Below are positions 2,009 to 57,269 of a DNA stretch of 64,000 bases, one piece after another. The stretch is from Halichondria panicea (Eukaryota > Porifera > Demospongiae > Suberitida > Halichondriidae), in contig NC_087381.1 of assembly GCF_963675165.1 (NCBI RefSeq), positions 2,046,001-2,110,000 on the forward strand, read 5' to 3'. The notes beneath the pieces are model-generated. The model was not told the origin of the DNA. It did not search any database and saw only the letters and a program-made list of their open reading frames with translations. How positions within the stretch are numbered: position 1 is the stretch's first letter; every line of letters begins with the position of its first letter. A program made the position numbers and the translations under genes.

Positions 2009-5000
2009 TCAAGTAATCTCACCATCATCATCATCAGTGATAGTAACCATAGCAGTTGCGTCCACCACATTCACAGGAAACACTCCATCTAGAGCCTCAA
2101 TCTGAAGATTTAACTGTTCCACATTCTCCACAACTTCATCGTTCATAATGAATAGTTTCCCCCTGTACTGGAGCTCCTCAATGGCAAAGGTAATTACTTC
2201 ATCGATGCTCTCATAATCCCTACCAGCTGTGAGTGAGGCAGGTGTGATTACAGACACTTGTAAATTTGATGTACACACAATTCTCACAATAATAAAATAG
2301 TCAGAATCTCATATTTTGCCTGATCTATCAAGTACTAGGTATACGCACACAGGGGCGTAGCCAGGATTTTGGAGAAAGAGGTGCTATCACAGATAAAAGA
2401 GGGCGCTAACCCCCCCCCATTTTTAGCCGCGCAGCAGCCGAAATTTGGTTGACCGGAAGCCACACCTCTTATTAATGACGTCATAATTAACTTATCTGCC
2501 AAGTTGGGCGTGGCTGAACGTTTATTTGCATAGAGAAGCTGGCCACGATCACAAAAGAGAACTAGTTTATAGATTTAAGCCAGAATGCCTCACAGTTTAG
2601 AGACTAAATCGTTTTCCTTGCTATACTCGCTAGCTAACAGCCTAACTGCAGCAAGATCTGGAAGAGAAAGGGTGCTCAAGCTCAAATGACAATCAGATAC
2701 ATTTCTGTGTGATTTGTATACTTGACTCAGACTGGTTGGGGGTGCTCGAGCACCCCTAGCACCCCCCCTGGCTACCCCCCTGGCACACGCATGAACAGCC
2801 TAGCTCGCGCAGAGTTGTATTTAAGTACAATTAGGAGAGTAGACTTGCTAGAAGTACGAGTATATAGAGAATGAGATTTGGATATAATTATGGATGGCAT
2901 GCGTACACGTATATATAGATCTACAAACATAGCAATTACATTATTGGTTAGAATCAGTCTCTCTAGAACTCTGCTTTCTCTTTCCAAGAGTAGTATTGTC
3001 GTTGTTGGCTTCGTTCATGTGAGTATAGCTACTACAGCTGGCCTATAATATAGCTAGCTCTTCCAGCTAGTACGTAGCTTTATTCTTGTGTATTATCTAA
3101 TGCAAATAGTAGATCAGTTTAACCGAACGTAGCCACAACCAATTCCGCATTCCTGAAGCGTGACATTCCTGAGCGAGACATACATACATACATATACATG
3201 CATACAATTTTCTGATATGATTCAGTATTAGTTGCCTCGCGCTAAGGCGCTCTGCAATTAACAATGATGTAATGACCCACCGATTGCTGAGTCATCAATA
3301 GTGAAGAGTCTGACTCTGACGTCACCCACTGCCCCACGAGTCTTGTCCAGAGTGAACCTGAAAATGCACACCCCCTCTCTCGCACTCAGTGATACGTCAG
3401 AGAAACTCACATTCATTACTGTAGGGTTAGAGAATACATAATTCTACTGATACAGCTCAACTAAGGCAATGAGACAATGGCGTTTCCTATGCTATATCAA
3501 AGACATCATCTGCTGGTAAGGCTAAGGGAAGTTTGATAACAATTATAGGAGCTAATGAGACAGAAGCTCGTCAAAAGGTTCGGATCGAAGAGGAATAGAG
3601 AATTGCAGTTAGAGAGACCTTTAAGAAACAGCAAGTCAAACTAATGATTACTACTCAGTACAATTTCTCTTCGCTAAGGCTCACCCCACATAATGCTTCC
3701 AGCATCCCCTAGTATTTATGCCTCTCTGTCCGCATGCGCAAGCGAGGTCTTTGCGTCTGTCTGTCTGCTTGTGTAGACTGCTACAGATCAATCACAAGTG
3801 CAAGTAAGAGCTTCTATAGGCTTCTAGTCATTAATTTCGTAAAATAATGCTTGGTTCTCGAGATATACCTGGTTTTGCTTATACTAGGAATGCCATTTCA
3901 GAATAATTTATTGGTTTATTACGTGACGTAGAACAAATTGTCCATGGAATGTTACTACTTACTTAGTAGTTAGTTCTGCACTAGAATGCTATAGCTATTA
4001 ATTGGTACCGTAGCTGCCAAAGTAAGAAAAGAGCTGCAAAGCTGCACTGCTCAGTATAGCCATTAATTGACTTTGGTCATTGACGATGGCATCGTTTATA
4101 GCAACAATTATGGTTGATCATTTCCCACTATTTTGCAGCATTATTCCCTGCAATGGGCTGCATGCAATTACATTTAATGTAAATTGCACATGTGTGTAAT
4201 TGTAATAATTATAGTTAGTAGCCTCCAACAAGGCATCAGCACCCGTGGTGCTTTCATTATGCCTCAGTGCGCATGCGCAAGCGAGGTATACGGTAGTGTG
4301 TTTGTGTGTGTGTGTTGACAGCTACGGCTGCTCAAGGATGAATCAAGTGCAAGTATAAGAGTTCCTATAGGCTTCTAGTCATGGATTTGCAAAATAATGC
4401 TTCGTTCTCGAGTTATGCCTAGTTTTGCTTTATACTTGGAATACCATTGCAACCTTTTCCGAAGAGTGCGTAGCAAAACTTGTCTATAGAGTGTTGCTAC
4501 TCTACTTAGTAGTTAGCTCTGCACTAGAACGTTAGCTATTGGAAGCTGCTGCAAGCTAAAGAGTGACACTGTCAGAGAAGAGAGCTGCAAGACTCTGCTG
4601 ATTGCAGCCATTAGGCTTGAACTTTTGGCATCGATCGTTTTTAACAATAATCATGGTCGATCATTATCCACTCTGTGATTCTGGATTCTGCCTGCATGCA
4701 GCAAAATTAATCAATTCATGGCTATTAGTAGCTATGTAGCTTTGGCACCTCCACCCGCGGTGCTTTCATTCTTCTTACAAAAGTTGGCTAACTACAGCAA
4801 AGATTTCTCACATTTGTATATATATAATCTTGCTATGATATTGCCTGTATTGCAGATACATTATGACTTACATACCTAGCAAATCGAGATCGAGATCATG
4901 GATCTCCACGGTAGCGACTGCCGGGGCCTGAATATACACTCCAGAGGAGGCAGACAGGAATACTTGAAATGATTTCGTTGGCTCAGGGAAGACATCGTTG

Positions 5001-9196: not shown

Positions 9197-9498
9197 CTAA
9201 AATGCTATTGTATTCTTCAGAGGCTCCATTGCAATATGTTTTATACTAAGAGCACATGAGGAGATGGAGCGTTTTACTATGCGGATTCTATATTGTCCTC
9301 AAATCGCCTATGTCAAACCACTAAGTGCTGCTATATTAAATGATTTTTCACTATTATCAGCTGTACATACCTGTACAGAGCACTTAGCACATGGAAATGT
9401 GGTTAGACGATATTGAGTCGGCAATAATTATTAGGCATAGTAATCTCCTCATATGCTCCTCTTTATACCAATCATGAATATAATTATACCTATTACAG

Positions 9499-9776: not shown

Positions 9777-11094
9777 TTATAATAGTAACAATAAGGTATA
9801 CCAAATAATTATAGAGCTTTGTACTAACCAAGTATGGTCAAGTAATCACCATCATCATCAGTGATAGTAACCATAGCAGTTGCGTCCACCACATTCACAG
9901 GAAACACTCCATCTAGAGCCTCAATCTGAAGATTTAACTGTTCCACATTCTCCACAACTTCATCGTTCATAATGAATAGTTTCCCCCTGTACTGCAGCTC
10001 CTCAATGGCAAAGGTAATTACTTCATCGATGCTCTCATAATCCCTACCAGCTGTGAGTGAGGCAGGTGTGATTACAGACACTTGTAAATTTGATGTACAC
10101 ACAATTCTCACAATAATAAAATAGTCAGAATCTCATATTTTGCCTGATCTATCAAGTACTAGGTATACGCACACGCATGAACAGCCTCGCGCAGAGTTGT
10201 ATTTAAGCACAATTAGGAGAGTAGACTTGCTAGAAGTACGAGTATATAGAGAATGAGATTTGGATATAATTATGGATGGCATGCGTACACGTATATATAG
10301 ATCTACAAACATAGCAATTACATTATTGGTTAGAATCAGTCTCTCTAGAACTCTGCTTTCTCTTTCCAAGAGTAGTATTGTCGTTATATTGTTGGCTTCG
10401 TTCATGCATGTGAGTATAGCTACTACAGCCGGCCTATAATATAGCTAGCTCTTCCAGCTAGTACGTAGCTTTATTCTTGTGTATTATCTAGTGGATCAGT
10501 TTAACCGAATGTAGCCACACCCAATTCCGCATTCCTGAAGCGTGACATTCCTGAGCGAGACATACATACATACATATACAATTTTCTGATACGATTCAGT
10601 ATTAGTTGCCTCGCGCTAAGGCACTCTGCAATTAACAATGATGTGATGACCCACCGATTGCTGAGTCATCAATAGTGAAGAGTCTGACTCTGACGACACC
10701 CACTGCCCCACGAGTTTTGTCCAGAGTGAACCTGAAAATGCACATCCCCTCTCTCACACTCAGTGATACGTCAGAGAAACTCACATTCATTACTGTGGGG
10801 TTAGAGAATACATAATTCTACTGATACAGCTCAACTAAGGCAATGAGACAATGGCGTTTCCTATGCTATATCAAAGACATCATCTGCTGGTAAGGCTAAG
10901 GGAAGTTTGATAACAATTATAGGAGCTAATGAGACAGAAGCTCGTCAAAAGGTTCGAATCGAAGAGGAATAGAGAATTGCAGTTAGAGAGACCTTTAAGA
11001 AACAGCAAGTCATACTCAGTACAATTTCTCTTCGCTATATAAGGCTCACCCCACACAATGCTTCCAGCATCCCCTAGTATTTATGCCTCTCTGT

Positions 11095-12115
11095 CCGCAT
11101 GCGCAAGCGAGGTCTTTGTGTCTGTCTGTCTGCTTGTGTAGACTGCTACAGATCAATCACAAGTGCAAGTAAGAGCTTCTATAGGCTTCTAGTCATTAAT
11201 TTCGTAAAATAATGCTTGGTTCTCGAGATATACCTGGTTTTGCTTATACTAGGAATGCCATTTCAGAATATTGGTTTATTACGTGACGTAGAACAAATTG
11301 TCCATGGAATGTTACTACTTACTTAGTAGTTAGCTCTGCACTATAGAATGCTATAGCTATTAATTGGTACCGTAGCTGCCAAAGTAAGAAAAGAGCTGCA
11401 AAGCTGCACTGCTCAGTATAGCCATTAATTGACTTTGGTGTTTATAGCAACAATTATGGTTGATCATTTCCCACTATTTTGCAGCATTATTCCCTGCAAT
11501 GGGCTGCAGCAATTACATTTAATGTAAATTGCACATGTGTGTAATTGTAATAATTATAGTTAGTAGCCTCCAACAAGGCATCAGCACCCGTGGTGCTTTC
11601 ATTATGCCTCAGTGCGCATGCGCAAGCGAGGTATACGGTAGTGTGTTTGTGTGTGTGTGTTAACTGCTACGGCTGCTCAAGGATGAATCAAGTGCAAGTA
11701 TAAGAGTTCCTATAGGCTTCTAGTCATGGATTTGCAAAATAATGCTTCGTTCTCGAGTTATGCCTAGTTTTGCTTTATACTTGGAATACCATTGCAACCT
11801 TTTCCGAAGAGTGCGTAGCAAAACTTGTCTATAGAGTGTTGCTACTCTACTTAGTAGTTAGCTCTGCACTAGAATGTTAGCTATTGGTATAGCTGCAAGC
11901 TAAAGAGTGACACTGTCAGAGAAGAGAGCTGCAAGGCTCTGCTGATTGCAGCCATTAGGCTTGAACTTTTGGCATCGATCGTTTTTAACAACAATCATGG
12001 TCGATCATTATCCACTCTGTGATTCTGGATTCTGCCTGCAAGCAGCAAAATTAATCAATTCATGGCTATTAGTAGCTATGTAGCTTTGACACCTCCACCC
12101 GCGGTGCTTTCATTC
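11095..12115. repeat. Two tandem copies of the dispersed repeat (right duplication copy)
   Basis: Counterpart of 3720-4765, with the same GCATGCGCAAGCGAGG cores at about 11098 and 11615 and small indels relative to the left copy. Confidence 0.6.
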
Positions 12116-12839
12116 TTCTTACAAAAGACAGCAAAGATTTCTCACATTTGTATATATAATCTTGCTATGATATTGCCTGTATTGCGGATACATATGACTT
12201 ACATACCTAGCAAATCGAGATCGAGATCATGGATCTCCACGGTAGCGACTGCCGGGGCCTGAATATACACTCCAGGGGAGGCAGACAGGAATACTTGAAA
12301 TGATTTCGTTGGCTCAGGGAAGACATCGTTGATCAGTGGGATAGTTATCTGGGCTTGATCTACACCTCGTGCAAATGTCACATTCTCTTCAGTATGCATA
12401 AAGTCTTCACAAACTGAGAACGATTGCAAGAGACCACAATATAATGATTGCACTAGCTAAAGCTGCAATAATAATTATGGTACTCTCACAAATGGACTAA
12501 AATCAAAATATTATACATTTATAGCTATGTAGCTATGTATACTGTGTACATACAATTTTCGGTATGCATAACCCTCACTTATAGCAGCGTTATCCCCAAC
12601 CATCTGAGCTGTTTTCAGTCTGACCACAATATCAGAGTCCAGATCTCCTCCCCTTACTATGGTAACAGTTACGGAGCTGTTGTTCTCGAATCCGGTGAAC
12701 TTGTTGGACGCCAAAGAAGCAGCTGGCACTGTGATGGATAAATTGAACACAACACAGACACCTATAATGCTACCAAGGGCAATTGTATAAGATTAAGAGG
12801 AGCAATAACGTCAACATTATACAAATTCTTTTTACTCAC

Positions 12840-14242
12840 ATGCAATAGGCCTTTGGGTCATTCCTGCAAAGTAACCGTAGCCCACTCTAAATTCATACCA
12901 GTACACAATCGTATTGATCCTCATGTTGTCAACGTGGCGTAGTATCGGAGAGTCGCTAACACCTTCAACAAGTATCGAGTAAGCACAAATTCCTTCACCA
13001 CTAGGACATGGAATTGCTGTTATTTCACTGCTTGTAATGTTCCTGTCGTTAAGACGAATTCCAGATGGTGATGTATCAACTGGAAATAGAATGTTCAAAA
13101 AGTAAGACCCAATCCGATCTTTAGTACTGATAGAACTTCTAAACGAGTGGGTGTTGTAGCGACTGCGATACTGCTCCACAGGGGGCACGACAATCATGAA
13201 CGGGTCACTAAGAAACACGCCATCTAAAATACTTGACATCGAAAACTGAACGAGTAGAATCGGTTGACTCGACATAAAATAGCATGAACTGTCGGAAGAT
13301 ATAATAAACCGACTCATCTCTCCCTTATCTAGAGAAATAGACATTGATTCGTCGTTAGTGCATCCAATTTGAACATTCGTATTATCCCTCGAGGCTACAA
13401 TTTTGAAAGTGTCACCAGACCTCCTGTTAGCCAGAGGAGCAGTGATGAATTGCTTGCCCCAGGTAGCAGTGGGTGGTATCTGCTCGTTCATATGATCACA
13501 ATAGCTGATATTACTGGGAACAGTTCCACACTCGTGACCACTAAAGAACGCAATCGGTTTGTCGGAGACGACTCTTGAACCTGACAAATCTTCATCACTT
13601 CCTAAATATAGAGTTTGAATTTTCTTAGCAATGTTAATAGTTACTGGCTGACCAGCTTCTATCTCCCCTTTAGGGACTTGATCCTTTAAATCGTCAGCAA
13701 ATAGATCAACATTTTGAGTTAAAGTGATTTGCAATGTAGTATCATCTTCAGTAGTTACAATCACCAACGCACTTCTTCCTTCAATGTCTAGAAACTCGCT
13801 GGCTGGGGTATAATCGTCGTCATCATAATCATCTTGCCGTTCTATCTGTGAAATTGGCACTGACACGGCATAATACTCGTAACCGTCGCTAGGGTGATAC
13901 ACACAAGGAAGAACTTTGAAAGCATCTGAGGATTGGAATTCTTCAGCAAGAGCTATCACTGACATAGGTTCACCATCTTTGGAGTAAATGTAGACACTTT
14001 TGTTTCTCTCTTCGGGGCTCCGGAGATTAATTTTGTCGGCTGGAAAGCCAAATTCAATTGGAGTGGAGTATGTTTCGATTTTACGATCATCCAAGGGAGA
14101 TTGTACAAAGACAGTGACTTGTTGGTTAGTTACAGAGTTGACAGCAAACCGAACTTGTTGATTCTGGAGCTGGACCCTGGGTTGAAGTTGCCGAAGAAAC
14201 CAATGTAGAAAGAGTTGCCTTCAGTTGTGAAACTTTCCTCAC
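12840..14242 (-). pseudogene. D2 exon: IgGFc-binding domain carrying the frameshift
   Basis: Same architecture as the D1 exon. After the lesion the frame from about 14094 down is open for about 420 codons and keeps SDKPIAFFSGHECGTVP, CDHMNEQIPP and WGKQFITAPL. The acidic loop near 13805-13845 reads QDDYDDDDYTPASEF, differing in length and composition from D1 and B. Confidence 0.8.
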
Positions 14243-15297
14243 CTGTAGAGAATAATTTAGACCCAATAATGAAATATGAAGGTGCAAAAGTATTATGCAT
14301 GTGTGCAATACAACATTTACAATGAGGGCATCAAATCAAGTCTTACTGTAGCAGTTAGAGCATTGAGAGCCCTCTCTATAAGACAACCCTCCACCAGGGA
14401 CACAGCAGCTGGACAAAGTGGCAGGGAATCCATCAACCTCATCACCATGGCAATCGAGCGAGGACAAACAAGATTCTGCGAGAATCAGTTGGAGGAATTA
14501 ATTGAAATACAGTGTGTATATAGAGTGTATTAGGAGACTTAACGATAATCAATAGATTACTGTTGACAATATAGTGCAGCGTATCTAGCAGGGGGCTTGA
14601 GTACCACCTGGCCTCACATGCAGACATGCAACCATGAAACTAATCTATAGCTATCAGCACTAGAGAAGATGGAAATGGTTGAACCAGCCAGGTGTAGACA
14701 AGGCAAAAAAACCGTGCAACAAGTGTAATTAAACAACTCACTCGTGGTCAAACCACAACGATTGTCCCCACAATCAAAAACCAGAAAGTCGTCAAAGGTC
14801 TAGCTATACTGCACAGCTCTATCCTATCATATTCTATACTTGCAGGCTTTTTCAGAGGTCAGTTTGCATCATTGTTGATTACAGTGGTGCCTCTTATTAT
14901 ATGTATATACAATGAACACAATGCTCTTATAGTACACATGAAGCTCCTTACGACCAGAATGAGGCTGGCTGTGTTAAAAATTCAATTTATTCAGATGCTC
15001 TATTGCTATGTTCAAACAATCATGAAACTACTTTAGAGCTTCTTACTAATTACACCGTATCAAAACACTGTATGTTGTGGTGGGTTTAAGATGGGCGGAC
15101 GTCCATTAGCATAATGTAGTAGTACAACACCTCAATCCATTATGGAGCCTGACAATTGCACCAGATGGTTACAGGTTCGTGGTTGCAACAGTTTTGTTTT
15201 TTGTACACCAGCTAGTATACTGTTACAGCTATTCAAGTGACTATGCTCACAATAAATAGCTTAAATCTCATTTAGCCCTGTTTCATCAAAGACTCAC

Positions 15298-15376
15298 GTT
15301 GCGCATGACTTGTAGAGCTTGATACCAGCATACAGATGACAATCACCAGCATCTTTGAGACTGAAGAAATCATCAT
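15298..15376 (-). CDS. D2 first exon: signal peptide
   Basis: The ATG at 15376 is followed by a second Met, then SSVSKMLVIVICMLVSSSTS and HAQ, and a phase-1 donor C|GTGAGT. It is homologous to the first exon of gene B (57269-57194), which supports this start. Parts of the following intron also resemble the B intron (shared GCACCAGATGGTTACA and GGTTGCAACA). Confidence 0.75.
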
Positions 15377-15556
15377 TCTCCTGTGCAAATTAGATCTATA
15401 GTCTCGATATATATGAGGACAGAAAATTAATAGTAAATATTTCTAGTTGGCTGGTTAAAATCTTAAATACTTTGCAGTACATTCACTTACATTCAGTTCT
15501 ACTCATTAGTACTGCACACTCCGCACTGCACAGACTAAGACTTGCCTGGAGTCAGC

Positions 15557-16206: not shown

Positions 16207-17572
16207 TCAACCAATAGACAGAGTTGCAGCATCAGAGACGACTGATCCCGCACTGTTGGTCACAACAACTGTGTAATCTCCAGCATCGCCAGACTCAACA
16301 TTGATAATTTGCAGGGTGGATGAATTGGATCCTTCGATGTCTCCGTCGACGTCAGTGAGAGCGTTCCTGCCAGGACCAAACCACTGGTAGCTCAATCCTT
16401 CACCAGAGGCTTCCACGGTGAGTGTGGCAGTTCCACCCGCTTCCGCATTCACATCGCTCGGTTGTACGTCAATTGCAGGACCTGTACACAAAGGCAAGTA
16501 AAGCATGAACATGCATGCCCGCCACACAGACACAAACTGAGCCGTAAGAATATAGGCATGTTTCAAATCTCACCAATAGACAGACTTGCAGCATCAGAGG
16601 TGACTGATCCCGCACTGTTGGTCACAACGACCGTGTAGTCTCCCGCATCGCCAGGCTCAGCGTTGAAAACTGTCAACGTTCCTGAAATGGACCCCTCAAT
16701 CTCTCCGTCACTGTCAGTCAGAGCCACTCCGCCAGGACCAAACCACTGGTAGGTCAGTCCTGCACCAGAGGCCTCCACGGTGAATGAGGCACTTCCGCCT
16801 TGCTCGACACCCACACTCTCTGGTTGGGTCTCAATTTCAGGGGCTACATAGAGTGAGTAGTGAAACGATCAGCACTGAACTCAGCATTGCTTGTTTGGCA
16901 CGAACAATGGAAGGGATTAACCACCGAGTCGACCATAATCAACTGGACCGCTCACCCACTTTTTAGAGGCTCAACGTGCTATGCTGCTATCAGCGGTGCA
17001 CACACATGCAGTTACGTTGAGGAGGATCGAGCTTAGTTTACACTCTATAATTGTAGTTTACACGGCCATGACGTACGTACTACAAACAAGGGGAACGACA
17101 CTTTCACTATAATATACTAAAAAGTTTAACGCATGCTGCCCACACGCACTCAATTTGGTACGAACTCAAGAAACGGCTCGGCCAGGGTGAATATACATTT
17201 ACCTGTGGTTGTGATTGTAATGGTTGACGTGAAACCAGCTCCATCCGCTGGATCGGTTGCACTGATGACAATGGTCTGGCTTCCTGAAGCTCCAGCGACA
17301 GACACAAAGAACGGGAATTGTCCACCTGCATGCAAACAGAAACAATGCGTCAATCACACGAGACCAACAAACGATGGATGAAGGCATGCAGCAGAGACAC
17401 CAAAACTCACATCCTTCTGTTACTGATTCATCATTGAAGCTGCACTCAAAGTCCAAGCCGTCGAGGTCCCTACTTGACGTGCAGCTCACACTCACTTGCT
17501 GAGACTCAGCGAGGAACTCGGCACTGCAGTTCAGGATCAGAGGAGCAAGTGTGGGACTTTGGGTAGGTTGAG
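16207..17572. repeat. Array unit 6: truncated terminal unit
   Basis: Exons 17572-17411, 17325-17203 (4-Cys module); Ig a about 16843-16574; final Ig about 16482-16207, which has an Ig b-type upstream intron but Ig d-type 3' coding text. The final donor is G|GTTGAA instead of GTGAGA, giving a stop. Confidence 0.8.
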
Positions 17573-35491: not shown

Positions 35492-35497
35492 TTTATT
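35492..35497 (-). terminator. Candidate poly(A) signal for gene B
   Basis: Minus-strand AATAAA about 205 bases past the gene B stop at 35699-35701. It supports B ending here rather than splicing into C. Confidence 0.5.
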
Positions 35498-44154: not shown

Positions 44155-47100
44155 CTAAGCAAGAATATATAGAAGTGTATTGACAGTAGGAATCCATCAA
44201 TTAAAAAGGGCCCCTTGTTTCTCAATGTGTGCAAGTAATTGCATACTTAGTACATAATATGTGAAATGGAAGGTGCAAAGGTAGTATAGGCACACTCATT
44301 TTATAGAAGCCGATACATCTAGCTACTAAGGTGCTCTCTTATATACCATCTGTGTCTAGTAAGGTGATAGTGGCAGTGCTTATTTCCAGGGAAACGTCAT
44401 CTCCAGCTGTGAGTGTGACGTTGAATAGTTCGGATGGTTCTGGAGTGGTGTCTTGTGTGAGCTCAATTGTTAGAGGTACACTCCAAACTCCAGGGAACAG
44501 CATTAGGGAACCACTGGTAACAGTGACATCACTGCCATCTGTATAATTATGTGTGTGAGTGGTCAGCTGCATATAATTATTATTGCTACTATATACCTCT
44601 AAAGTACTGGGGTATGACATAATGTTCCTAGTGAAGTCATTTTAAAGAAACCATCGGATAACTTCAACATAAGAGATCACATAAAATTTGTTACTGTTCG
44701 CACCCGTTTGCAATAACAAACTCGCTGTCAAAGCCAAACACTATAGAACAAATAAACATTTTTACTCTCGTAATCGTATTGCAAAGTTATGGAATTTACT
44801 TGATGCCCACCATGGATATCAACGCACCAGAATACCCTCTTACTCTATCACTACTTCTGGGAATACTTCAAACAAAACTTTAATTCTGACAACCCATGCA
44901 TGTACATATACTACTTAATATGCTCATGCTACATATGCTCATAGCTCCTCCACATGTTATTGTACTACATATTTATTCAGCTGTGTTGCACAATGCGGCA
45001 CAGTCTGTCAGCCAGCCTTTGTAACAATAATTATACTGTGTTTTTATATCACAATTACATTACAGGCTGTGAAGCAATAATGTAGGTGCATGTACGTACA
45101 TTAGTTACTAGTAGCCCAGAATCCAGCAATCTGATTGGTCAGTACAGGGTTTATATTTCCCATATTAACCTGTAAATTCTCATATAAACCTGTAATTTTC
45201 ATGTTCACAACAACCATTCATTATTTTGTGTTTTTCAAACATGTTTTTTGTAGATTGTGTTATAAAAAACAATGAGAAGTAACTGTTCTGTTTTTGGTAA
45301 TGACATAAAATTATAATGTTCAGTCGCTGTTAATACGTTGGTTGTTGGATGTAGGCATAGAGAGATTGATGGTAACGTTGCAGGTACTAAAGTTAAAGTT
45401 TGGAGGCATAAATTGACAGCAGTTGGTTTGTGAGTTCTGTTGCACTACTGCCATCTGTGAGTGATCAGTGTGTGCCAGTATGTTAATTGGCTTTACGTTG
45501 AGGATGTCTGAAACTGACTTCTTTTGACACTCAGAAGTTCTCTTGTAGCTGCGAACTCCTTCCAAGCTTCGGTGTCCAGTTGTTTCCATTATCATTTGTT
45601 CGTCCACTCCAGCATTGTAGAGTCTAGTAGCAGCAGTTGCACAGAGAGAATGATTCGTTCGGTACCCCTTAATACTAGCTGCAGAGCATAGTCGAGCCAC
45701 TGTTTGGTCCAGCGTACGTATTGTGGCCAATTGGTTTGTTCGAAAACCAAGTAGTAGGTGTTGGGTTTTTCAAGGCTCGAAAGTAAAATGAATTTTTAGG
45801 ACAATCTTTTGGCAGGAGCTGTTGGTAAAGCTTGAATAGCCGAACGAAGCATTCTTCAGGGTTTTCGGGATTGTTGTAGTGAGACACTACTTTTCGGCTT
45901 GAGTTTCCTGCCTTTCAAGCCTCCTGGTCGATTTTTGATATGTCTTCTGTGTATTTCAAATACGACCGCTGTCCTTCAACTTCAATTACTTGAATTTGGC
46001 ATGGTTCTGACCTCAATTGACGATGTTCGCTACCACTTCGTAGAGCAAAGTAGACACCATTCATAAAAAGTACCGTATCAACCAGTGCTTGTGGAGTTTT
46101 GCATCCAAGAAGACCTTTGTTCCATAGAAGTTCTTCTTCTTCTTCTGTTAGAGGTTCAGCCTTCTTCTTTTGTGACCCTAGTCCAGCTCTCTGGGCCATC
46201 GTTCTTTTCCGAATCTGAAAAATGAAGCATTTCAGGTTCTCGGATAGTTCCTCGGATTTCAGGTCACTCAATAGTGGAATAACATCCCCTTGGCACTTTA
46301 ATCGGTACTCACACCAGTCATTCCATAGCTTGAAGTAGTACTTTGTATCTGAAGTTGTGCTATTAGGAATAGCACTCTTCAATTTTTCCATCTCATTTTT
46401 TGTTAACTGAGGTGCAAATGCATGTACGCACTTGCTTGGAGGTAGAGGCACTGCTTGAAGAAAGCTTCATTCGCTTTGAGTTAGGTAGAGAAGATTGTGC
46501 AGGTTCTGTTGGCTCGTCCAGCTTCTCCTCCTTTCTTTGTTCTGTAGAAAAAGTAGCCAGCTCCGCTTCCACATTTATGTCGTAGAGGGCGGGGTCTATG
46601 GGCTCGGTCATTATTATGCCGAGTACTTTTTGAAAAGAGCTTGTCTAGGCCTACGTCTTCGTCCGCGTCCATTCTTTCGTTGAAATGAACCTAGCAACTA
46701 ACTCGTTAGATACTGTTTAGGAGGTATCTATGGGAATTATAAGCCCGCAGGCACTCGTAGTACCCTCGCTTTGCTCAGGATACTACAGCAGGCCTTTGGG
46801 CTTATAATTCCCATAGATACCTCCTAAACAGTATCTAACTATTATGTAAACTCTCGTTAATCTGGTCACCCTCAGGACATTGCAGCTTGGCCAGAATATA
46901 GTGAGGTGTGGCCGCATTTCAGAAAATGGTCGTGGCTAAAAACGATTCTACCTCGACTAATTATTTTTGCGGATCTGTCCCGAGGATTAATGCATTAATC
47001 ATACTTATCTGGCACAGTTCTAACTTATGTCATGCCTTATTTATGCAAGCTTTATTGTGCGATATAGCACCAAACAACAATAGTTTATCGTAATTCAATT

Positions 47101-50100
47101 TTATCTGCCAAACGACACTTACAACGTAATATCCAGCCATAATAAACGTACATTTCACTGTTTAGCTCATTTTACTGGTATTAAATTCTGCTAAATCCTG
47201 CTCAAGTTGTGAAATTAATGTTATTCATGGGCTATAACATAATTACAGTGGAACCTCCATTAACGACCACCTCCAAAATGCAACCACATGCACGCTATAT
47301 AACGGCCAAAAGCTCAAGGTCCGGATTGAAACTACAATGACTTCAAGTAACCTCTGAGGAGCGACCACCTCTCTACTCCCTATAACAAGCAGCTTTCTAG
47401 TCCCTGATCAGCTTTAGCAATGGAAAATTACTTCCCAGAACGGACAGCCACACCCAGAATTAGCAGAAAATTATTGCTAAGATAGCATTATTATGCACAA
47501 CAATCGTGAAAATCTGGCTGTAGCTTGTCCCTACAGCCTTTTCAAAGCTTGTATGAGCTAAAGAAGCAGTTAGCAAAGCTCCAAGATTGATTTGCAGCAA
47601 GAAATGACTCATAGAGCATACATAGCTGGCAATCGAAACCTCCCAAAGAAGACCACCTCTCTTATTATAACGGCCAAAAGGTTGTTTCCCAATGGTGTCC
47701 GTTTATGGAGGTTCCACTGTATCACAGTACCAGTTATAGGCGTTATTTAAATCAGCTCTATACAACTCAATTGTAATACCTTGTGTGTTCCTTTTTTCCA
47801 CGGTGTAACTGACAATGACTGGGTCGGGGTTAGCGCCATTGCTATTGACAACAAGAACAGCTGTTCCAGCCTCCTCCACTGTGGTGAAGCTACTCTGGGA
47901 AAATCCAACTCGAGCAACTGCAGAGGAGAGATAATTATCAAATGGTCTGTTTCTCCTTCTCCAGCTAGGAAGAGGCGAAACTAGTAGACAAAAAAATTAA
48001 ATACGATTTTCTAAAACGAATGAAGAGATAAAATTAGGGGGAAATGAGCTCAATCAAACCTATCATACTTACAATTTACAGAACTGAAACCACGGCGCTG
48101 TTTTGTATCATCTCTACTTCACAATTAAAGGTTGACTATATACACACCCTGTCTTGAATCATTGTCTTCAATCTGAAACTCAATACTAGATCTAGAAGTT
48201 TGAATGGTGACTCTGTCAGGAACTCCAGACAACAGAGACAGCTGCACTCCAAACCTCTCATTTATTTCTCCCTCAAACACTCCATCGTCATTGACTACGA
48301 TGAGTCCTTCAAAGATTGGTGATAGTGAAGAAAGTGTGACTGGCTCATTTAAAGCAGCCACATAGTCCTCCAGATTTGAGTCTCCACCTGCATGGTGAGA
48401 ATTGAGCAAATAAAAATAACAAGTACTGTATATCGAGACCAATTAATGCATAGTAAATCATTTTGAGAATGGCACTGTACATGTATACCATCCCTCTCTC
48501 TTTTGTGAGTATTTAATTTTCGATAATTCGGAATCGACAGAGTTTCACCTTCGAAATTCCGTATATATAGTATTTAGCTGCTCCACAAAACTTAATTACA
48601 AATACTTTTAGCAATAGTTTAAACGCTACTCTAGATTTATTAGTACAGGCCTGTAACCACAAGTATTACATCAAGCTTGATACAATTCTAAATATCAGCT
48701 GAAATGTTTGCGTAAAATAGCATGTATAGCAATGAATATCTGAGGACAAAACCATAACCAGTGTGCCATGCAGTACCTGTGGCATTGATGTTGTATGTAG
48801 AGTACACTAGATCCACTGGTATCCCTAGTTCACCAGAGAGTAGTCTGATATTGAACCGAGCACTGCCTCCTCCCTCCCGAATAACACTCCTCACACCTTC
48901 AAGCACAATCACAGCAGCTGGAGAAATAAAATGTATATAGCATTTCGGGGTATAATAATTATATATATCCAAAACCTAAAAAAGCTCTACACTGTAAAAA
49001 ATGATGTGTGGTTTTGACGCAGAGTGCGTGGCTATTGTGGCAAACGTACGTTTTTTTCTTGCGTTTTTTCCTGATAATTGCCACCATAGTCACGCACTTG
49101 CGTCAAAACCACACACCATTTTTTACAGTGTATATATGCACAGATGCTAAACCAAGTCATCAAACCAACGTTGCTCCAATTTGTGGATCTTATGCTAGCT
49201 GGTTATCTATACCCATAAAATAAACATAAAAGCATTAACTTACTATCTAAGTCATTGATGGTGATCTGAGCCACGTCTCTTCCAATGACAATGTTCCCAG
49301 TAGCGTCTTGTTGGGAGATTGTCAAGCCGATAGAAAATGTCTCATCTCTCTCAACTAGACCATCGGGAATGATCATTATCGTTATTGGTACAGACGAGGG
49401 ACCATCGGGACTGAATACGACTGTCTCATTGATGCCCACATAGTCCATATTCTCTGGGATATATAGAGAAGAGACATAATTATTAAAAGCTACAAAAATG
49501 GTGCCAATAGCTAAAAGCCTACTGGTTTTAACAATAATTATAGTGGTATAGTTCTCGAGGACAATATGGCATCCACATACTGAATATACTCGGTCACATC
49601 ATTACAATAGAGTATATGTACCCACGCTCTATTTTAGGACATTGTGGTGAACTAGAACATTCTGTGACTGGGTTAATTAAGAACTAGAACATTCCGTGGT
49701 AAAGGACCAGAACTTTATGTGTTAAGAACCTTCCAGAGGTTCAGTATTCTAGAACTTTGTGGGTGTTGTAGAACAATCTAGATCTTTGGTGCATGTGTCT
49801 GTATAAAATAGCTAGAGAAGGAGTTATATTCAGTTCTGTTCTCATGTTAAAGTTATAGAAGACTCCTATTTACTTGGATCGTGTTCTGTTTAAGTCAACT
49901 GCGAGCCTTGGCGCAGCCGGGGGCTCATGACAGACATCAATGAACATAAGAGTAGATATCCAGTATATACCTATTGCAGATCCACTCTGGCTTATCAGCT
50001 GCAATTCAACAGTTCTGTCGAGGACACCATACTCCAAAGACACTTGTACAACAAAATCTGACTTGTTTGTGGAGTATGTTGCTTGTAGGAAACTGAACAC

Positions 50101-53100
50101 AGCAACTGAAGTGAAGTAATGACATGCAGCTTGTACTGTACATGTCGTGAAGTCACCAATAACAGAATTTAGCCTACAACATTAACTGCATGCATGCTGA
50201 ATAAAATACAGTAGTTAATCAAATGTATAGCTCATACTATTCCATCTGTTTTACATGCTCTACTGAAATATTGCTCGTCGTGTGAATGCATCCGAGATCT
50301 CACCATCATCATCAGTGATAGTAACCATGGCAGCTGCGTCCACCACATTCACAGGAAACATTCCATCTAGGGCCTCAATCTGAAGACTTAACTGCTCCAC
50401 ATTCTCCACAACTTCATCGTTCATGATGAGCAGTGTTCCCTCGTACTGCAGCTCCTCAATGGCAAAGGTAATCACTTCATCAATGCTCTGATAGTCCCTA
50501 CCAGCTGTGGGTGAGGCGGGAATGCATTACGGAGGTATCTGTAAACTTGATGAGCATTGATATATAGCAGATTATTAAACTGATAAAATAGACAGAACCT
50601 TGATCTGTCTCCACAACTTGAAGGCTATAATAGGGAATAGTGATGTAATGCTCACCAATTGCTGAGTCATCATTAGTGAAGAGTCTGACACTGACGTCAC
50701 CCACTGCCCCTTGAGTCTTGTCAAGCGTGAATCTGACCACGCTCCCCTCCACGTCATTCAGTGACACCGCAGAGAAACTCACATTCATTACTGCCAGTAA
50801 ATACAGACCCCTTTATAATTTGGTGTGCACAAAATCTTAATTGCTATACGAATGAAAAACTACGTATATTAGTGAGATTGAAACACATAAATTATCGTTA
50901 TAAAGTTCTGCTGACATACTATAATTATCACATGAACATACCAGGCAAATCAGGGTCTCGATCATTGATAACAACGGTAGCGACTGCCGGAGCCTGAATA
51001 TACACTCCGGGGAAGGCAGACAGGAACACTTGGAATGATTCCGTTGCCTCAGGGAAGACATCGTTGATCAGTGGGATAGTTATCTGGGCTTGATCTACAC
51101 CTCGTGCAAATGTCACATTCTCTTCAGTATGCACAAAGTCAACACCGGCTGAGATAGAGACAAAATTGAATGATTGCACTATAAATACAGTGATTGGTTT
51201 CATCTTGCTTGTTTGACACTATAGAAACTATAATTATCAAAAAATATGTAAAGATCAGTGTTTTGTTATCTAAAATGCAAATAGCTTAGAAGGGTAATTT
51301 CTTTCCAGCACTAGGCACATCTCTATTAATTTTATGCATAGCCCTCACCAATAGCAACATTATCTTCAACCAGCTGAGATGTTTTAAGTTTGACAACAAT
51401 TTCCGAATCCAGATCCCCCTCCCTCATTACGGTCACGTTTACGGAGCTATTATTCTCGAATGCAGTGAACATACTGGATATTAAAGAAACAGCTGGCACT
51501 GTGGATAGATTGAAAAAAAAACCGTGAAAGAGTATAGGAATTTTACGTATACTTTACAACACAAAACGGTACTACAAAAAGACTTTAGGAATTGTCCACT
51601 GCTATATTTCGATCCCAAATTGCTTTATTTTGAACCTACAATTTAGGTACAGCATCTACTTAAATCACATTTACTTAACTCACATGCAATAGGCCTTTGG
51701 GTCATTCCCGCAAAGTAGCCGTAGCCCACTCTGAATTCGTACCAGTACACAATCGCATTGATCCTCATGTTGTCAACGTGGCGTAGTATCGGAGAGTCGC
51801 TAACACCTTCAACTAGTATCGAGTAAGCACAAATTTCTTCGCTATCAGGACATGGAATTTCTGTTATTTCGCTGCTTGAAATGTTCCTGTCATTAAGACG
51901 AATTCCAGATGGTAATGTATGAACTGGAAATAGAATATTCAAAAAGTAATACCCAATCTGATCTTTAGTACTGACAGAACTTCTAAACGAGTGGGTGTTG
52001 TAGCGGCTGCGATACTGCTCCACAGGGGGTACAACAATCATGAACGGGTCACTAAGAAACACGCCATCTAAAGTACTTGACATAGAAAACTGCACGAGTA
52101 GAATCGGTTGACTCGACATAAAGTAGCAAGAATCATCAGAAGATAAAACAAACTGACTTATCTCACCCCTACTCAGAGACACTGACATTGATTTGTCGCT
52201 AGTACATCTAATTTGAACATTCGTATTATCCCTTGAGGCTACAATTTTGAAAGTGTCACCGGAGGTCCTATTAGCCAGAGGAGCAGTGATGAATTGCTTG
52301 CCCCAGGTAGCAGTGGGTGGTATCTGCTCGTTCATGTGATCACAATAGCTGATATTGCTGGGAACAGTTCCACACTCGTGACCACTAAAGAACGCAATCG
52401 GTTTGTCGGACACGACTCTTGAACCTGACAAATCTTCATCACTGCCCAAATATAGAGTTTGAATTTTCTTAGCAATGTTAATAGTTACTGGCTGACCAGC
52501 TTCTATCTTCCCTTTAGGAACTTGATCCTTCAAATCGTCAGCAAATAGATAAACATTTTGAGTTAAAGTGATTTGCAATGTGGTGTTATCTTCAGTAGTT
52601 ACAATAACCAATGCACTTCTTTCTTCAATGTCTAAAAACTCGCTGGCTTGGGAAAAATCGTCATCTTCATCATCATCTTGCCGTTCTATCTGCGAAATTG
52701 GCACTGACACGGCATAATACTCGTAACCGTCGCTAGGGTGATGCACACAAGGAAGAACTTTGAAAGCATCGGAGGAATGAATTTCTTCAGCGAGAGCTAT
52801 CACTGATATAGGTTTTCCTTCTTCGGAGTAGATGAAGAAACCTTGATTTCTCTTTTCAGGGCTCTGGAGATTAACTTTGTCAGCTGGAAAATCAATTTCA
52901 AAAGGGGTGGAGTATTTGTTGACTTCACTGCTCAAGGGAGATTGTACAAAGACAATGACTTGTTGGTTAGTTACAGATTTGACAGCAAACCAAACTTTGT
53001 TGATTCTGGAGCTCACGTCTAGTTTTACGTTGGCAAAGAAACCAATGAAAAAGGAATTGCCCTCGGTTGTGAAACTTCCCTCACCTGTGTATAATTATAT

Positions 53101-56100
53101 AGTACAATAACTAAAAGCACCGCAGGTATATATAATAATAATAAAAATGTTTTCTTTTTGTAAATTTGCTATAATGCTTTACAAAAGAAAACATTTTTTT
53201 TACAATTCAGAAATTCCAGGATACAAGAAATAGCAAAAGCTAATAAGTTAGTACTCTAAAAATAGTATAACTATGTATTCAATGCATACTAAGTACTGAA
53301 AGATCATTAAAAGGAAGTACAAGCGCTAAGTTCACAATTTGCTACAATCTTGTTCCATAATAGTTGGGAAGAAAGAGTTATTATAGACCGAGGTTCTGCA
53401 TAAAACTGGAGCAAGAGACAGATTATTAACATGTCTTATATCGTATGGTAAGTGTCTCTTCTTAGGTGTGTGCTCGTAGTAACTTAATTTGAATAGATGG
53501 TACAGGCTGGCCAATGCCCTTCTCTGTCCTAGCGTTGGTAGTTTTTTGCTTGTTTCAAAAGATCCAAAGAGTTGTCCACTGCTTTATAGGCAAACTTTTA
53601 TTGCAAACTTTTGAACCTTTTCCATACCCTCGATTGTTGCATTTCAAGTGCGGGTTCCAAACAATCGAAGCATACTCAAGATTTGGTTTAATAAAAGATT
53701 CGTATAGTTTCAGCATAACAGTATAGGGGGAGAATGAGTTGCGAAGTTTCTGTGTAGCAGTCCAACAAGTTTTCTCGACTTCTTACAAAGTGCCTTAGTG
53801 TGGGAATGCCAAGAAAGATCTGATGCAAATTGGATTCGTATATAGATATCTCAACGTCTCCACACGCTCCAGGGATAAGCCATATAACTCTTACCTGCAT
53901 TTTGTTGATCTTTGAGCAGTTGTATAGCAGTCTACACAGACACACACAAACACAGTACTGTATACCTTGCTTGCATGCGCATGCGCACCGAGGCATAATA
54001 ATTATGTTCAATCAATACTTACTGTAGCAGTTAGAGCATTGAGGACCTTCTCCATATGACAACCCTCCACTGGGGACACAGCAGCCTGACAGAGTGGCAG
54101 GGAATCCACCAAATACATCACCGTGGCAATCGAGAGAAGAAAAACATGATTCTGCAGTACATGGACACCATTGCATGAAATACAACCTAAAATTGTAAGA
54201 CTGCTGCTTACTACTATATTTTGAAGGCTCTAATATAATGTTTCTTGTATCATTTTTGTATCATTGAACAGCTATAAGTATCCTATTATGTATACAATGA
54301 TTGTCAAGGAACTCTTCTCTTTGAAGTGGTACAATAGCGAGTACATTTCAGTATAAACTTTCGCGGAATGACCATGCATTATCGAAAGGTTTTGGATTTC
54401 ATTTTCATGGAATAGTAGCCTTTCTGCAGCATGCATGCATGCATGCATGTAATGTTAAATTCGTGGGTATAAATATTTGCGGTAGATGCTTGATCAGCGA
54501 AAAAACCACGAACATTTATACCCTCGATATATACCTGCTATATAGGTATCAGGAGTATATCAAGAGGCCAACTCCCACGCACAGGAGCATAGCCAGGATT
54601 TTGGAGAAAGGGGTGTTATCATAGAGATGAAAGAGGCCTGAAATTTGGTTGACAGAAAGCCACACCTCTTATTAATGACGCCATAATTAACTTATCTGCC
54701 AAGTTGGGCGTGGCTAAACGTTTATTTGCTGGCCACGATCACAAAAGAGAACTAGTTTATACATGTATAGATTTAAGCCAGAATAGCTCACAGCTTAGAG
54801 ACTGAATCGTTTTCCTTGCCTATACTAGCTAGCTAACAGCCTAACTGCAGCAAGATAGCTGGATAATCAGATACATTTCTCTGTGATTTGTATAACTGAC
54901 TAGGCTGGTTGGGGGTGCTTGCACCTCCCTGGCTACGCCCTTGAGTCATCGCACATCCCATTCTACATCTAGGACTGAATCCATAACACTTTTAGTTGTG
55001 TAAACTGTTAGCCATGAATAAAATTAACGTGACATACTTGTATCGTATCGTAACGTGGTTTACACTACAACTGCTACAGTTGCATACTCCTCAGTGGCGT
55101 AGGAAGCACGGGTGCTCAGGGTGCTGGAGCACCCCCTTATCTCAAGCTACCTTACCTACTTGCTCCATGAAGTTCAGAACAGCTAGCTAGTAGTCGTCTA
55201 GCCTCGGTCCCAGGCCGATTTTTGCGTTCAATTTGAGACGGATCGGCCGGGGGTCGAGGCTAGTAGTGGTCAAGCTACATGTAGTAGCTAAAATGTTACT
55301 GAGCTAGCTATACTAGCATAGTTACGTACACAGTACAAAGGTCAGCTAGATGAACCACATCGTAGTAGATATCTCTTATAACCCTTTCCTTACCATTTGT
55401 GAAAGTCTGGAACAGGAGCGTCTTTAGGTCGATCAATTAGTGTGGATCTAGCCTCGATTCCAGGCCGCATTAAAATACGCCTGGAATCGAGGCTAGTGTG
55501 GACCAAGCCTCCATGTCATTCTATTAGTCTAGATCCGGCTAGCAATTCAAGCTGGGACTCCCAGTTCTAGCTCCTTTTGTTTAGCGTGTCAGAGACTGGG
55601 AGAAGATGATTGGCACTCCCTGGCTCCTTTGGATGTACAGCTGTCCAGATCCCTAGAACATACCCTCCATTCTGACGAGTTATCAGTGCATAGGGTGCTT
55701 ACTAGATTCTTGCCAGCCAGTACAGTTCAAGCTACACACAGCACCGCTCAACTATTCTCTACCCCATTATCTAGCTAAATCTGGTCCAACTAGACAGCAG
55801 ACACAGCTAGTTAATTCAGTAAAGCCAGGGGTAGCTGTACTTCTACGGTTGTTCAGTACCCACGGTAACAATTCCTCTGGGCTGGGCTAACTAGTTGAGC
55901 CACGCCTCCCAATTCTCAAGGCTAGGTACATGTCTCTGTCTAGCTGCTTCTTCAGCTTCTTGCTCAGTTTTGTGGCTTAGAGAAAGGCCAGCTACTCAGG
56001 GGGAAGAGTCGAGATGAAAGTCTGGCAGCCAGGTGACGTCCAAACGGTCAGTTATTCCTTCCACCAACTTTTTAATCTAGTCTAGTCCTGCTTGCACTGC

Positions 56101-57269
56101 TACTACTACTGCTACTCTTCCTACTACTACTGCTGCTACTCTTCCAGGCTAGTCAAAGGTTTCTTTTTTTTTTTTTTTAACTACATATGCACAAAGAGAC
56201 ATCAAAGGACACAGATTTTTAGCCTACTTGACTGATAAGGCCGTTACCTAGACTACAGTTTGTTTGTCAGGGAGGAGCTCACATACAACTTCATCTAATT
56301 CATCATAACGATTCGTTACCGTTGTTGTAATTTCTACAACATATTGCCAAGGAAAGAGTTAAAGAGCATGCAAACATGACATCGTTTCCATGAACTTTAA
56401 CTATAGATATAGATCAAGTGTATTAATTGGATCAAAATAGACATGCTGTCACATGCAGATGGATCTATACTATTAAACTGAAGCTGAAGATGGTATTGTA
56501 GAGCAATTGAATGAACATGAACCTGATGATGAACATGAACCTCTTTTTTTATTGTACCCACTTAACAGATTCTCAGGGGCTATAGATTTAAAGTATAATA
56601 TATAGCAGAATAATTTATCTAGGTAAACTCACGTAGAATTAATTATTTTGGCAAATTTTGATAGTGATATATGCCAAAATTTTACGGGGGCAAGCCCCCG
56701 GACCCCCAAATTTTTACATCAGCACCCCCTTACAAAAACATCTTCCTACTCTTCTGCTCCTCCTAATGTACTCCTGGCGGTATACATCACTATAATTATG
56801 AAGTCTCATGCACTATAATTTAGACAGCATGCTTGCAAATTAATCAATGCAAGAGGTTCCATTGAAGTACTAAATTCCCAGCACCACGGTCTGTGAGGTT
56901 TCACCGTATGATGTGGGCAAGAGATCCATTAGTGTAATGTATAGTACACAACTTCACACGATTGTGCAGACTAACCACGTAATGCACCAGATGGTTACAT
57001 GCAAGCCGTGGCCAGTGGTTGCAACACATTATCCTTTAATGTTTTTGTGCACCAGGCTGCATGCACGTACTGCATTTGTTGAATATTTATTATATAATTA
57101 TATTGAGTACCTTCGTTTGTAATTATAATACACCTGTCATTGCATGTACAATTATCCTGGAGCCATCTCGTTTGTTATATTGATAAGACTCACCTTGTGC
57201 ATGTGTAGAGCTTACTACCAGCATACAGATGGCAATCAGCAGCATCTTGGAGACTGAAGAAATCCTCAT
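35699..57269 (-). CDS. Gene B: secreted IgGFc-binding / Calx-beta / sushi-array protein
   Basis: Exons: signal peptide 57269-57194; Cys module 54151-54023; IgGFc-binding 53084-51684; Calx-beta 1 (51498-51349, 51148-50942), 2 (50790-50656, 50514-50304), 3 (50105-49971, 49453-49244), 4 (48917-48777, 48387-48148), 5 (47917-47780, 44538-44347); then 27 sushi exons from 44154 to 35699. The product is roughly 2,700-2,800 residues with no transmembrane helix, so it is probably secreted. Sushi domains are complement-type protein-binding modules, Calx-beta are Ca2+-binding adhesion modules, and IgGFc-binding domains occur in mucosal and matrix proteins, so an adhesion or recognition role is inferred. 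The final sushi exon ends Cys-Glu-Gly-TGA where the sister exons have a donor. The start is supported by homology with D2. Confidence 0.8.
44347..51498 (-). CDS. Gene B Calx-beta block (five domains, ten exons)
   Basis: Each Calx-beta domain is split by an intron at nearly the same place, after an Ile-Gly-like pair in the first three. Second halves end VVINDRDPD, VTITDDDG, ITINDLD, QIEDNDS and ITLLDTDG, the acidic stretch typical of Ca2+-binding Calx-beta domains. Domain 5 is split by a 3.2-kb intron (47779-44539) that carries a LINE remnant, the Crypton relic, a 42-bp inverted repeat and a pogo-like MITE. Confidence 0.8.
44690..44930 (+). mobile_element. Remnant of a non-LTR retrotransposon (RT C-terminal end)
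   Basis: Plus-strand frame reads KLAVKAKHYRTNKHFYSRNR then IAKLWNLL. Another frame further on gives a piece ending in NPC. This fits the R-T-N...FFxxRv..WN pattern at the end of LINE reverse transcriptase ORFs. Frame-broken; lies inside a gene B intron on the opposite strand. Confidence 0.5.
45320..46672 (-). pseudogene. Dead Crypton-type tyrosine recombinase
   Basis: Minus-strand pieces in several frames (46672-46481, 46611-46393, 46451-45915, 45887-45675, 45730-45320) together resemble Crypton-type (DUF3504, KIAA1958/ZMYM-like) tyrosine recombinases: FALRSGSEHRQLR (first catalytic Arg box), PENPEECFVRLFKLY, GYRTNHSLCATAATRLYNAG, TGHRSLEGVRSYKRTS. At least four frameshifts separate the pieces. 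The second catalytic Arg of the H-x-x-R motif is Cys (HSLC). It sits in the intron that splits Calx-beta 5 of gene B, same strand as the gene. It is a decayed transposon, not a host gene. Confidence 0.75.
46705..46839. repeat. Perfect 42-bp inverted repeat with 51-bp loop
   Basis: Left arm 46705-46746 starts GTTAGATACTGTTTAGGAGG. Right arm 46798-46839 is its exact reverse complement. It starts about 30 bases beyond the first Met of the Crypton relic. Perfect arms beside a decayed ORF suggest a separate, younger foldback element. Confidence 0.85.
47246..47719. mobile_element. Pogo/Tigger-like MITE, 474 bp
   Basis: Inverted termini CAGTGGAACCTCCATTAACG and ..TATGGAGGTTCCACTG, flanked by TA at 47244-47245 and 47720-47721. 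Internal GACCACCTCT/AACGGCCAAAAG text is repeated. No transposase. In a gene B intron. Confidence 0.8.
48990..49130. mobile_element. Short palindromic MITE, 141 bp
   Basis: Arms CACTGTAAAAAATGATGTGT ... with the inverse at the right end (..CATTTTTTACAGTG), flanked by TA. Nearly the whole element is a hairpin (GTGGTTTTGACGCA versus TGCGTCAAAACCAC). It lies in the intron between Calx-beta 3 and 4 of gene B. Confidence 0.85.
51684..53084 (-). CDS. Gene B exon: IgGFc-binding domain
   Basis: About 467 codons in one exon, phase 1-1. Shows SDKPIAFFSGHECGTVP, CDHMNEQIPP, WGKQFITAPL and a terminal RPIAC. Third paralog of the D1/D2 exons and clearly more diverged from them than they are from each other. 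Acidic loop near 52650-52685 reads RQDDDEDDDFSQASEF. Confidence 0.85.
53340..53905 (-). mobile_element. Remnant of a non-LTR retrotransposon reverse transcriptase
   Basis: Minus-strand fragments across shifted frames resemble the LINE RT C-terminal half: DLSWHSHTKALCKKSRKLVG, LKLYESFIKPNLEYASIVWN, ALASLYHLFKLSYYEH, and RTSVYNNSFFPTIM. Several frameshifts and stops. Located in the gene B intron between the Cys and IgGFc exons. Confidence 0.7.
54023..54151 (-). CDS. Gene B exon: N-terminal Cys-rich module
   Basis: 43 codons: ESCFSSLDCHGD, FPATLSGCCV, LSYGEGPQCSNCY. Six cysteines, including an adjacent pair. Same length (129 bp) and phase as the D1 and D2 copies. Donor GTAAGT. I do not know a named family for it. 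Confidence 0.75.
54583..54942. mobile_element. MITE related to 2351-2783
   Basis: Begins AGGAGCATAGCCAGG and ends CCTGGCTACGCCC, and shares internal text (CCACACCTCTTATTAATGAC, AACTTATCTGCCAAGTTGGG) with the D1 copy but with deletions. No clear target duplication. Confidence 0.75.
55091..56765. mobile_element. Non-autonomous DNA element of about 1.7 kb, degenerate
   Basis: Left end CAGTGGCGTAGGAAGC is followed by GGGTGCTGGAGCACCCCC. The right end is GGGGGCAAGCCCCCGGACCC ... CAGCACCCCCTTAC ... CTTCCTACTCTTCTG, an imperfect inverse. No transposase frame. It contains two palindromic mini-elements (55198-55263, 55448-55496), a CTA/CTG triplet-rich patch near 56100 and a T-run at 56160. Confidence 0.5.
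55448..55496. repeat. Palindromic mini-element, perfect 18-bp arms
   Basis: CTAGCCTCGATTCCAGGC at 55448-55465 and its exact inverse at 55479-55496, with a 13-base loop. A diverged relative with 20-bp arms lies at 55198-55263. Confidence 0.85.
57194..57269 (-). CDS. Gene B first exon: signal peptide
   Basis: Starts MRISSVSKMLLIAICMLVVS and ends THAQ before donor G|GTGAGT. Classic basic n-region, hydrophobic core and small residues before the cleavage site. Homologous to the D2 first exon. Confidence 0.75.

Follow-up and report, generated by a model that had tools for sequence, protein, structure and literature searches.

The sponge Halichondria panicea carries a same-strand tandem array of mosaic extracellular proteins, examined here over C5:1.95-2.15 Mb, and two predicted receptor tyrosine kinase genes (A1 and A2) belong to this array, judged by their exons, as the 5'-most members found and not as bystanders. 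Most members look secreted, with both secretion and expression predicted from the gene structures. Our preferred reading, to which we give an even chance, is that the array encodes secreted multivalent matrix, adhesion or recognition proteins together with receptor kinases that are built from the same exons and may sense them. To our knowledge, the signalling receptors of sponge cell adhesion and graft recognition are poorly defined and candidate secreted factors exist; this one array offers named candidates for both roles.

The window, meaning the whole stretch of 64,000 nucleotides that was analysed (C5:2046001-2110000 of a 131-Mb, 39-contig genome), cuts through the array, and the view was widened to C5:1946001-2150000 and to relatives on other contigs. 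Minus-strand frames were read, exon chains were obtained from a home-made gene finder and domains were tested with Pfam. The gene finder fused adjacent genes, so borders were set manually from signal peptides, stops and sister copies (Table 1).

Table 1. Features of the array and layout of PSI-TIG kinase loci outside contig C12. Positions are in window numbering unless a contig is given.
Feature	Location	Strand	Evidence or layout
A1 receptor tyrosine kinase, C-terminal part: TIG domains, TM, kinase	60112..64000	-	Pfam; TM within 62668-62417 by eye
Signal-peptide exon of B'	57194..57269	-	GTGAGT donor; sole hydrophobic segment over cut
Six-Cys module exon of B'	54023..54151	-	exon chain
IgGFc_binding exon of B'	51684..53084	-	Pfam PF17517, E 6.2e-56
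Five Calx-beta domains of B', two phase-1 exons each	44347..51498	-	exon chain and Pfam
DUF3504 mobile-element remnant	45323..46466	-	Pfam E 2e-14; in the 47780-44538 intron of B'
27 sushi exons of B', two alternating types	35699..44154	-	last one ends GGT TGA; AATAAA at 35497
Ig gene or region: QPTQG modules, Cys2 module, Calx-like exons, Ig array	16207..34596	-	ends GGT TGA
D1: signal peptide, Cys module, IgGFc exon, exons of two Calx-beta domains	9829..15376	-	exon chains
D2: Cys module, open IgGFc exon, exons of two Calx-beta domains	2023..7144	-	exon chains
A1, A2		same strand	Calx-sushi-SRCR before PSI
PSI-TIG kinase locus	C2:7.39 Mb	same strand	IgGFc and sushi before PSI
PSI-TIG kinase locus	C5:5.94 Mb	same strand	Calx-like and CCP before PSI
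PSI-TIG kinase locus	C5:5.98 Mb	same strand	Cys2-type module and Calx-like before PSI
PSI-TIG kinase locus	C4:3.55 Mb	same strand	three ordered Calx-like exons before PSI, E 3e-7 to 2e-16

Organization of the array

By exon chains and Pfam, the typical member consists of a signal peptide, a six-Cys module, an IgGFc head and Calx-beta domains, in that order, with five Calx-beta domains in five copies and two in the three D copies. The five-Calx copies continue into 3-27 sushi units, after which comes either a stop with an adjoining Ig array or an FN3-SRCR tail; among the array genes the number of sushi units ranges from 2 to 27 where they are present, and the type of tail also varies. Four sister copies with five Calx-beta domains lie at C5:1.961, 1.980, 2.026 and 2.006 Mb. 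According to our own counts from the chains, the first three have 3, 19 and 3 sushi exons, respectively, ahead of an FN3 / Thr-Pro-Cys-rich / SRCR / CCP tail, and the fourth has ~10 sushi exons, 4 CCP exons and, further on, Ig exons. SRCR and sushi exons occur together in one gene in three secreted sister copies and in A1 and A2; the secreted genes of the window itself have no SRCR. Signal-peptide exons are found at seven places in C5:1.946-2.130 Mb.

The initial annotation had proposed a tandem cluster of mosaic secreted proteins in the window, and the same-strand array bears this out, with every module that it named present on the minus strand in frames, chains and Pfam matches. The cluster is larger than was thought. 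The IgGFc exon of B belongs to a set of eight same-strand copies at C5:1.961-2.099 Mb (83-100% identical, B included; next best in the genome, 34%), of which the window shows three (B, D1 and D2), and the array also includes receptor kinases. The seven other close copies, at C5:1.961-2.060 Mb, are 83-87% identical to that of B, and the end of the IgGFc exon is altered in the C5:2.006 Mb copy. There are 122 IgGFc matches genome-wide, with further exon clusters at C1:14.6-17.7 Mb, C11:2.15-2.31 Mb and C5:6.0-7.6 Mb.

Four same-strand genes (B, C, D1 and D2) were originally recognized in the window; their domains stand, and their borders have been redrawn. B continues into the sushi half of C, and the two are a single gene, B' (57269-35699, minus strand), with 40 exons, GT-AG borders at 39 of 39 introns and one open frame of 2750 aa. 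The two had looked separate because a DUF3504 element, presumably a remnant of the tyrosine-recombinase type, sits in an intron of B'. The predicted product has 29 N-glycosylation sequons and no RGD, and its signal peptide is the sole segment above the hydropathy cut. The six-Cys module has no Pfam match. Two of the second-half Calx-beta exons of B' (C5:2095245 and 2096955) are above the Pfam cut-off in a genome search, and the Calx-beta exons of a sister copy reach E 6.4e-46 (PF03160) and a sister-copy pair of sushi exons E 1.7e-22. Between B' and A1 there are five copies of a 43-bp tandem repeat (58916-59128).

The D copies are shorter and partly damaged. The IgGFc exon of D1 is frameshifted near 14.17 kb, and D1 is 98-100% identical to the C5:2.006 Mb copy over ~1.85 kb, which points to recent exchange. 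The exon chains of the three D copies contain no sushi, and a scan of C5:1.946-2.130 Mb found no signal-peptide exon before D2 or before the next copy (D3), so D1-D2-D3 may represent repeats inside one gene, or copies that are incomplete.

A second family in the Ig region

In the final sushi exon of B' the frame closes at a TGA, the donor there is very weak (score -1.95), and AATAAA follows 0.2 kb further. One sister copy has the same ending. Hence the Ig half of C (34596-16207) probably forms a gene of its own, or transcripts enter it by skipping the last sushi exon. A single gene made of B and all of C was considered and set aside: the GTAAGT donor of the Ig exon at 32572 favours it, the TGA that the sister copy shares weakens it, and exon skipping could still join the two parts. 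Within the window we found neither a first exon for the Ig gene nor a signal peptide for its Cys2 module. Two hydrophobic ATG stretches (35434 and 35148), which lie after the sushi stop and before the first QPTQG exon, were inspected and neither was taken as the start. A candidate signal peptide is present at C1:6448177, 1.3 kb ahead of the Cys2 module of a relative on contig C1. The terminal repeat exons of both arrays (35699-35704 and 16207-16212) end GGT TGA where internal units carry a splice donor, as do both ends in a sister copy; repeat arrays may end in this way, by donor loss into an in-frame stop.

The middle of C had been joined with B, D1 and D2 into one family diversified in place, on the strength of a common Cys module and split Calx-beta exons. 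This description suits B, D1 and D2 and does not extend to the Ig half of C, which has a larger related array on contig C1. The Cys2 module (31806 to ~31649) is only 39% identical to the module of B over 46 residues (E 1e-4), and the exons at 31386-28237 are better termed Calx-like, with 20.7 and 23.5 bits against a Pfam cut-off of 27. The Ig array itself is made up of Ig domains of the I-set type, most of which lack the usual cysteines. QPTQG and Ig exons recur in the large array at C1:6.379-6.445 Mb, where near-identical exons are up to 99% identical, and an alignment of 11.2 kb that includes introns joins C1:6.403-6.414 Mb with window positions 22454-33565 at 96.3% identity (500-bp pieces, ~85% to 99.8%). 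This near-identity means that the Ig half did not simply diversify in place, and transfer could have run either way. The Cys2 module and the Calx-like exons belong, with the Ig half, to a second family that is shared with C1. An Ig cassette array nearly unchanged between two contigs suggests exon shuffling caught in progress.

Receptor tyrosine kinases built from array exons

The window ends within A1. Pfam identifies its TIG domains (E 1.9e-15) and its kinase (E 2.3e-72), and PSI is below the cut-off (14.8 of 23.1 bits). The kinase carries [24 protein letters not shown], and its motifs include a glycine loop, [12 protein letters not shown] and DFG. Exons for the signal peptide, Calx, sushi, SRCR and PSI lie beyond the window end, up to C5:2123322; reading upstream from the kinase, they are PSI, SRCR (two exons), two sushi exons, Calx 3-4 and a signal peptide 85% identical to that of B. 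A2 is the next gene upstream (C5:2.131-2.147 Mb) and repeats this layout with a retained FN3 exon in addition. Identity of A1 and A2 to the rest of the array is 85% for the signal peptide, 78-91% for Calx, 74-83% for sushi and 68-80% for SRCR. All 20 exon segments used as queries matched in A2, 18 of them gap-free and with no stop (pN 0.015, pS 0.053, ratio 0.29). Continuity of the two genes is read from exon order, phase and the presence of two tandem copies; the gene finder put the exon after SRCR in another frame, and in our own reading phase 1 applies both to the donor of SRCR (65834) and to the acceptor that follows it (65638; window numbering, past the window end). No IgGFc head and no Calx 1-2 were found in A1 or A2, so these receptors need not share ligands with the secreted members. 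Both genes have the second-half Calx-beta exon Calx5b in inverted orientation, on the plus strand past the window end (C5:2117231-2117411; C5:2141159-2141347).

Genome-wide we counted 38 strong PSI-TIG loci, 32 on C12 and six elsewhere; the count leaves aside fragments, two PSI-only loci (C4:3065517 and C2:7377526) and weak TIG matches on C7 and at C12:3.65 Mb. All six PSI-TIG kinase loci outside C12 have, upstream and on the same strand, exons of the Calx, IgGFc, Cys-module, sushi or SRCR types. A PSI-TIG receptor kinase scaffold whose heads differ from locus to locus is a further sign of exon shuffling in progress. On C12, about 31 PSI-TIG receptor-kinase loci occupy C12:4.54-5.57 Mb and a 32nd is at C12:6.73 Mb. 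Two of these 32 were examined, and neither has array-type ectodomain exons; each has a signal peptide, a head of 335-353 aa that stays under every Pfam cut-off, and then PSI, recognized in one locus by Pfam (E 4e-9) and in the second by a 30% match in the library. It is possible that the C12 loci are a large Met-like kinase expansion. A Sema head at these loci is a visual impression; the Sema model has four matches genome-wide and none on C12.

These fusions bear on a plainer account, in which ordinary repetitive matrix genes occupy a repeat-prone region and the receptor fusions are evolutionary by-products without joint function. Recent segmental duplications, the frameshifted D1, the shortened D copies, the mobile element and the inverted Calx5 exon in A1 and A2 are all consistent with such an origin. 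The same type of fusion occurs at five separate places, counting A1 and A2 as tandem copies, and frames are open and under purifying selection in seven IgGFc copies and both kinases, which argues against it; we consider this account rather doubtful.

Selection and repeat evolution

Comparison of paralogues within the one assembly served as a proxy for polymorphism among individuals. We tested seven of the eight IgGFc copies (D1 was dropped for its frameshift, and the C5:2.006 Mb copy was shortened), 24 and 33 sushi units and 30 Ig units, the repeat units being those that matched a start or core pattern. The dN/dS of the seven IgGFc exons was 0.15-0.42, below 1 in 21 of 21 pairs, and pN/pS was 0.26-0.63 for sushi units and 0.41-0.51 for Ig units. 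The paralogues are under purifying selection; diversifying selection among them was considered and rejected, all ratios being below 1. Sushi units from one gene resemble each other more than they resemble those of other genes (type A, 0.937 vs 0.840; type B, 0.891 vs 0.756), which is not so for Ig units (0.748 within, 0.776 between). The sushi arrays show the pattern expected of recent unequal crossing-over under purifying selection. An unrooted tree of Calx exons (6 rows, without A2) carries none of our conclusions.

Purifying selection among paralogues speaks against a diversified repertoire of binding heads, and is still compatible with allelic polymorphism or with selection at few sites. 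The adhesion or recognition role put forward in the initial annotation is plausible; the selection result weighs against a diversified recognition repertoire and not against adhesion. An allorecognition locus, with polymorphic secreted and receptor members that would tell self from non-self, as a sponge counterpart of a linked secreted/transmembrane histocompatibility locus, seems to us improbable. Exons common to clustered secreted and receptor members, the variation in array length and tail, and the fact that known sponge aggregation factors are Calx-beta proteins would fit such a locus; the paralogues give no sign of diversifying selection, and no VWD was found in the array, which count against it. 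Humoral or surface innate immunity is likewise unlikely, though less so: opsonin- or mucus-like pattern-recognition proteins would bind microbes, with the kinases as immune receptors and no self/non-self role. In support of this proposal, one study catalogues for H. panicea a class of pattern-recognition receptors that combine SRCR, sushi and FN3 (PMC8242945); purifying selection and homogenized sushi repeats, which do not resemble an arms race, are unfavourable to it.

Predicted fold of the IgGFc head

A pattern scan found relatives of the IgGFc head in at least 79 bacterial loci, many of them in Bacteroidota, Ignavibacteria/Kapabacteria and Myxococcota. A structure predicted from two copies in the window was of poor quality (pLDDT 33.7). 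Adding 45 of the 79 bacterial loci brought the input to 47 sequences, and the resulting model reached pLDDT 81.4 and pTM 0.88 and is nearly all beta. No solved structure in the PDB matched the head well, by sequence or by fold: the best Foldseek E was 3.1e-4 with a highest listed probability of 0.47, and VIA gave a best Z of 6.9 (rmsd 2.6 over 78 residues), with a complement C3 chain among several ties. In a viral library the best match was a Feldmannia virus protein (E 1.8e-9, TMq 0.46). As the fold has no strong PDB match, we draw no binding chemistry or function from it.

A candidate ligand-receptor system

In our preferred reading, of secreted multivalent proteins and kinases that may sense them, the long secreted members would assemble into fibres of a matrix or aggregation type, or into coat particles, that are multivalent and probably depend on Ca2+. 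Receptor members would use the domains they have in common with the secreted ones to attach to the same fibres or ligands, and would signal through tyrosine phosphorylation, a pairing that we infer from shared exons and linkage. Because domain borders coincide with phase-1 introns, unequal crossing-over and exchange of segments would alter repeat number and tails with the frame kept, so that members would differ in valency and in kind of tail, and not by rapid change of residues. A bolder version, which we hold to be unlikely, describes a linked self-recognition or adhesion locus whose ligands and receptor tyrosine kinases, drawn from one exon set, would co-evolve by exon exchange, the kinases being the missing signalling receptors for aggregation-factor-like matrix proteins.

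Comparison with known systems

Sponge aggregation factors are Calx-beta proteins, such as Microciona MAFp3/p4, and their family is marked by VWD, which is defining, by the Wreath domain and by high allelic polymorphism. A cluster of aggregation factor genes in Amphimedon was reportedly described by Grice et al. in 2017. Like them, the array comprises clustered secreted Calx-beta proteins with domain shuffling; it differs in its IgGFc head, its sushi, SRCR and Ig domains, its receptor kinase members and the lack of a detected VWD. Calx-beta is present by Pfam, and of 21 VWD matches genome-wide none falls in C5:1.946-2.150 Mb by an exon-by-exon search, which could miss a split domain; membership in the aggregation-factor family is not claimed.

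FCGBP-type proteins are secreted and have an IgGFc head followed by VWD repeats. The array shares the IgGFc_binding head, identified by Pfam, and predicted secretion, and differs in that no VWD repeats were found after the head. At places on C12, C3 and C1, an IgGFc exon and a VWD exon do occur on one strand at a distance of 2-5 kb, an FCGBP-like arrangement.

Sponge SRCR/SCR proteins are known from Geodia cydonium. In H. panicea, the available part of PMC8242945 describes SRCR mosaics that combine SRCR, sushi and FN3, and a sponge receptor figure legend there names IgGFc-binding, Calx-beta and Sushi, so the figure could contain related architectures. The array resembles these mosaics in having SRCR with sushi and FN3, and differs, as far as that part of the source goes, in its ordered IgGFc-Calx-sushi architecture with kinase-bearing members. 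Our searches of open-licence papers turned up no receptor tyrosine kinase architecture with a Calx-beta/sushi/SRCR ectodomain.

A1 shares PSI, TIG, TM and tyrosine kinase with the Met and Met-LP kinases, as given in the accessible portion of PMC6374515, which places the origin of the Met receptor tyrosine kinase in Bilateria; A1 and A2 have Calx-sushi-SRCR exons where Met has its Sema head. The best PDB matches of the kinase were one EGFR-labelled chain (twice), followed by RET, MER and MET at similar E-values. In Botryllus, fuhc combines linked secreted and membrane members in one locus, and the array, with its predicted secreted proteins and receptor kinases, is like it in layout, homology aside.
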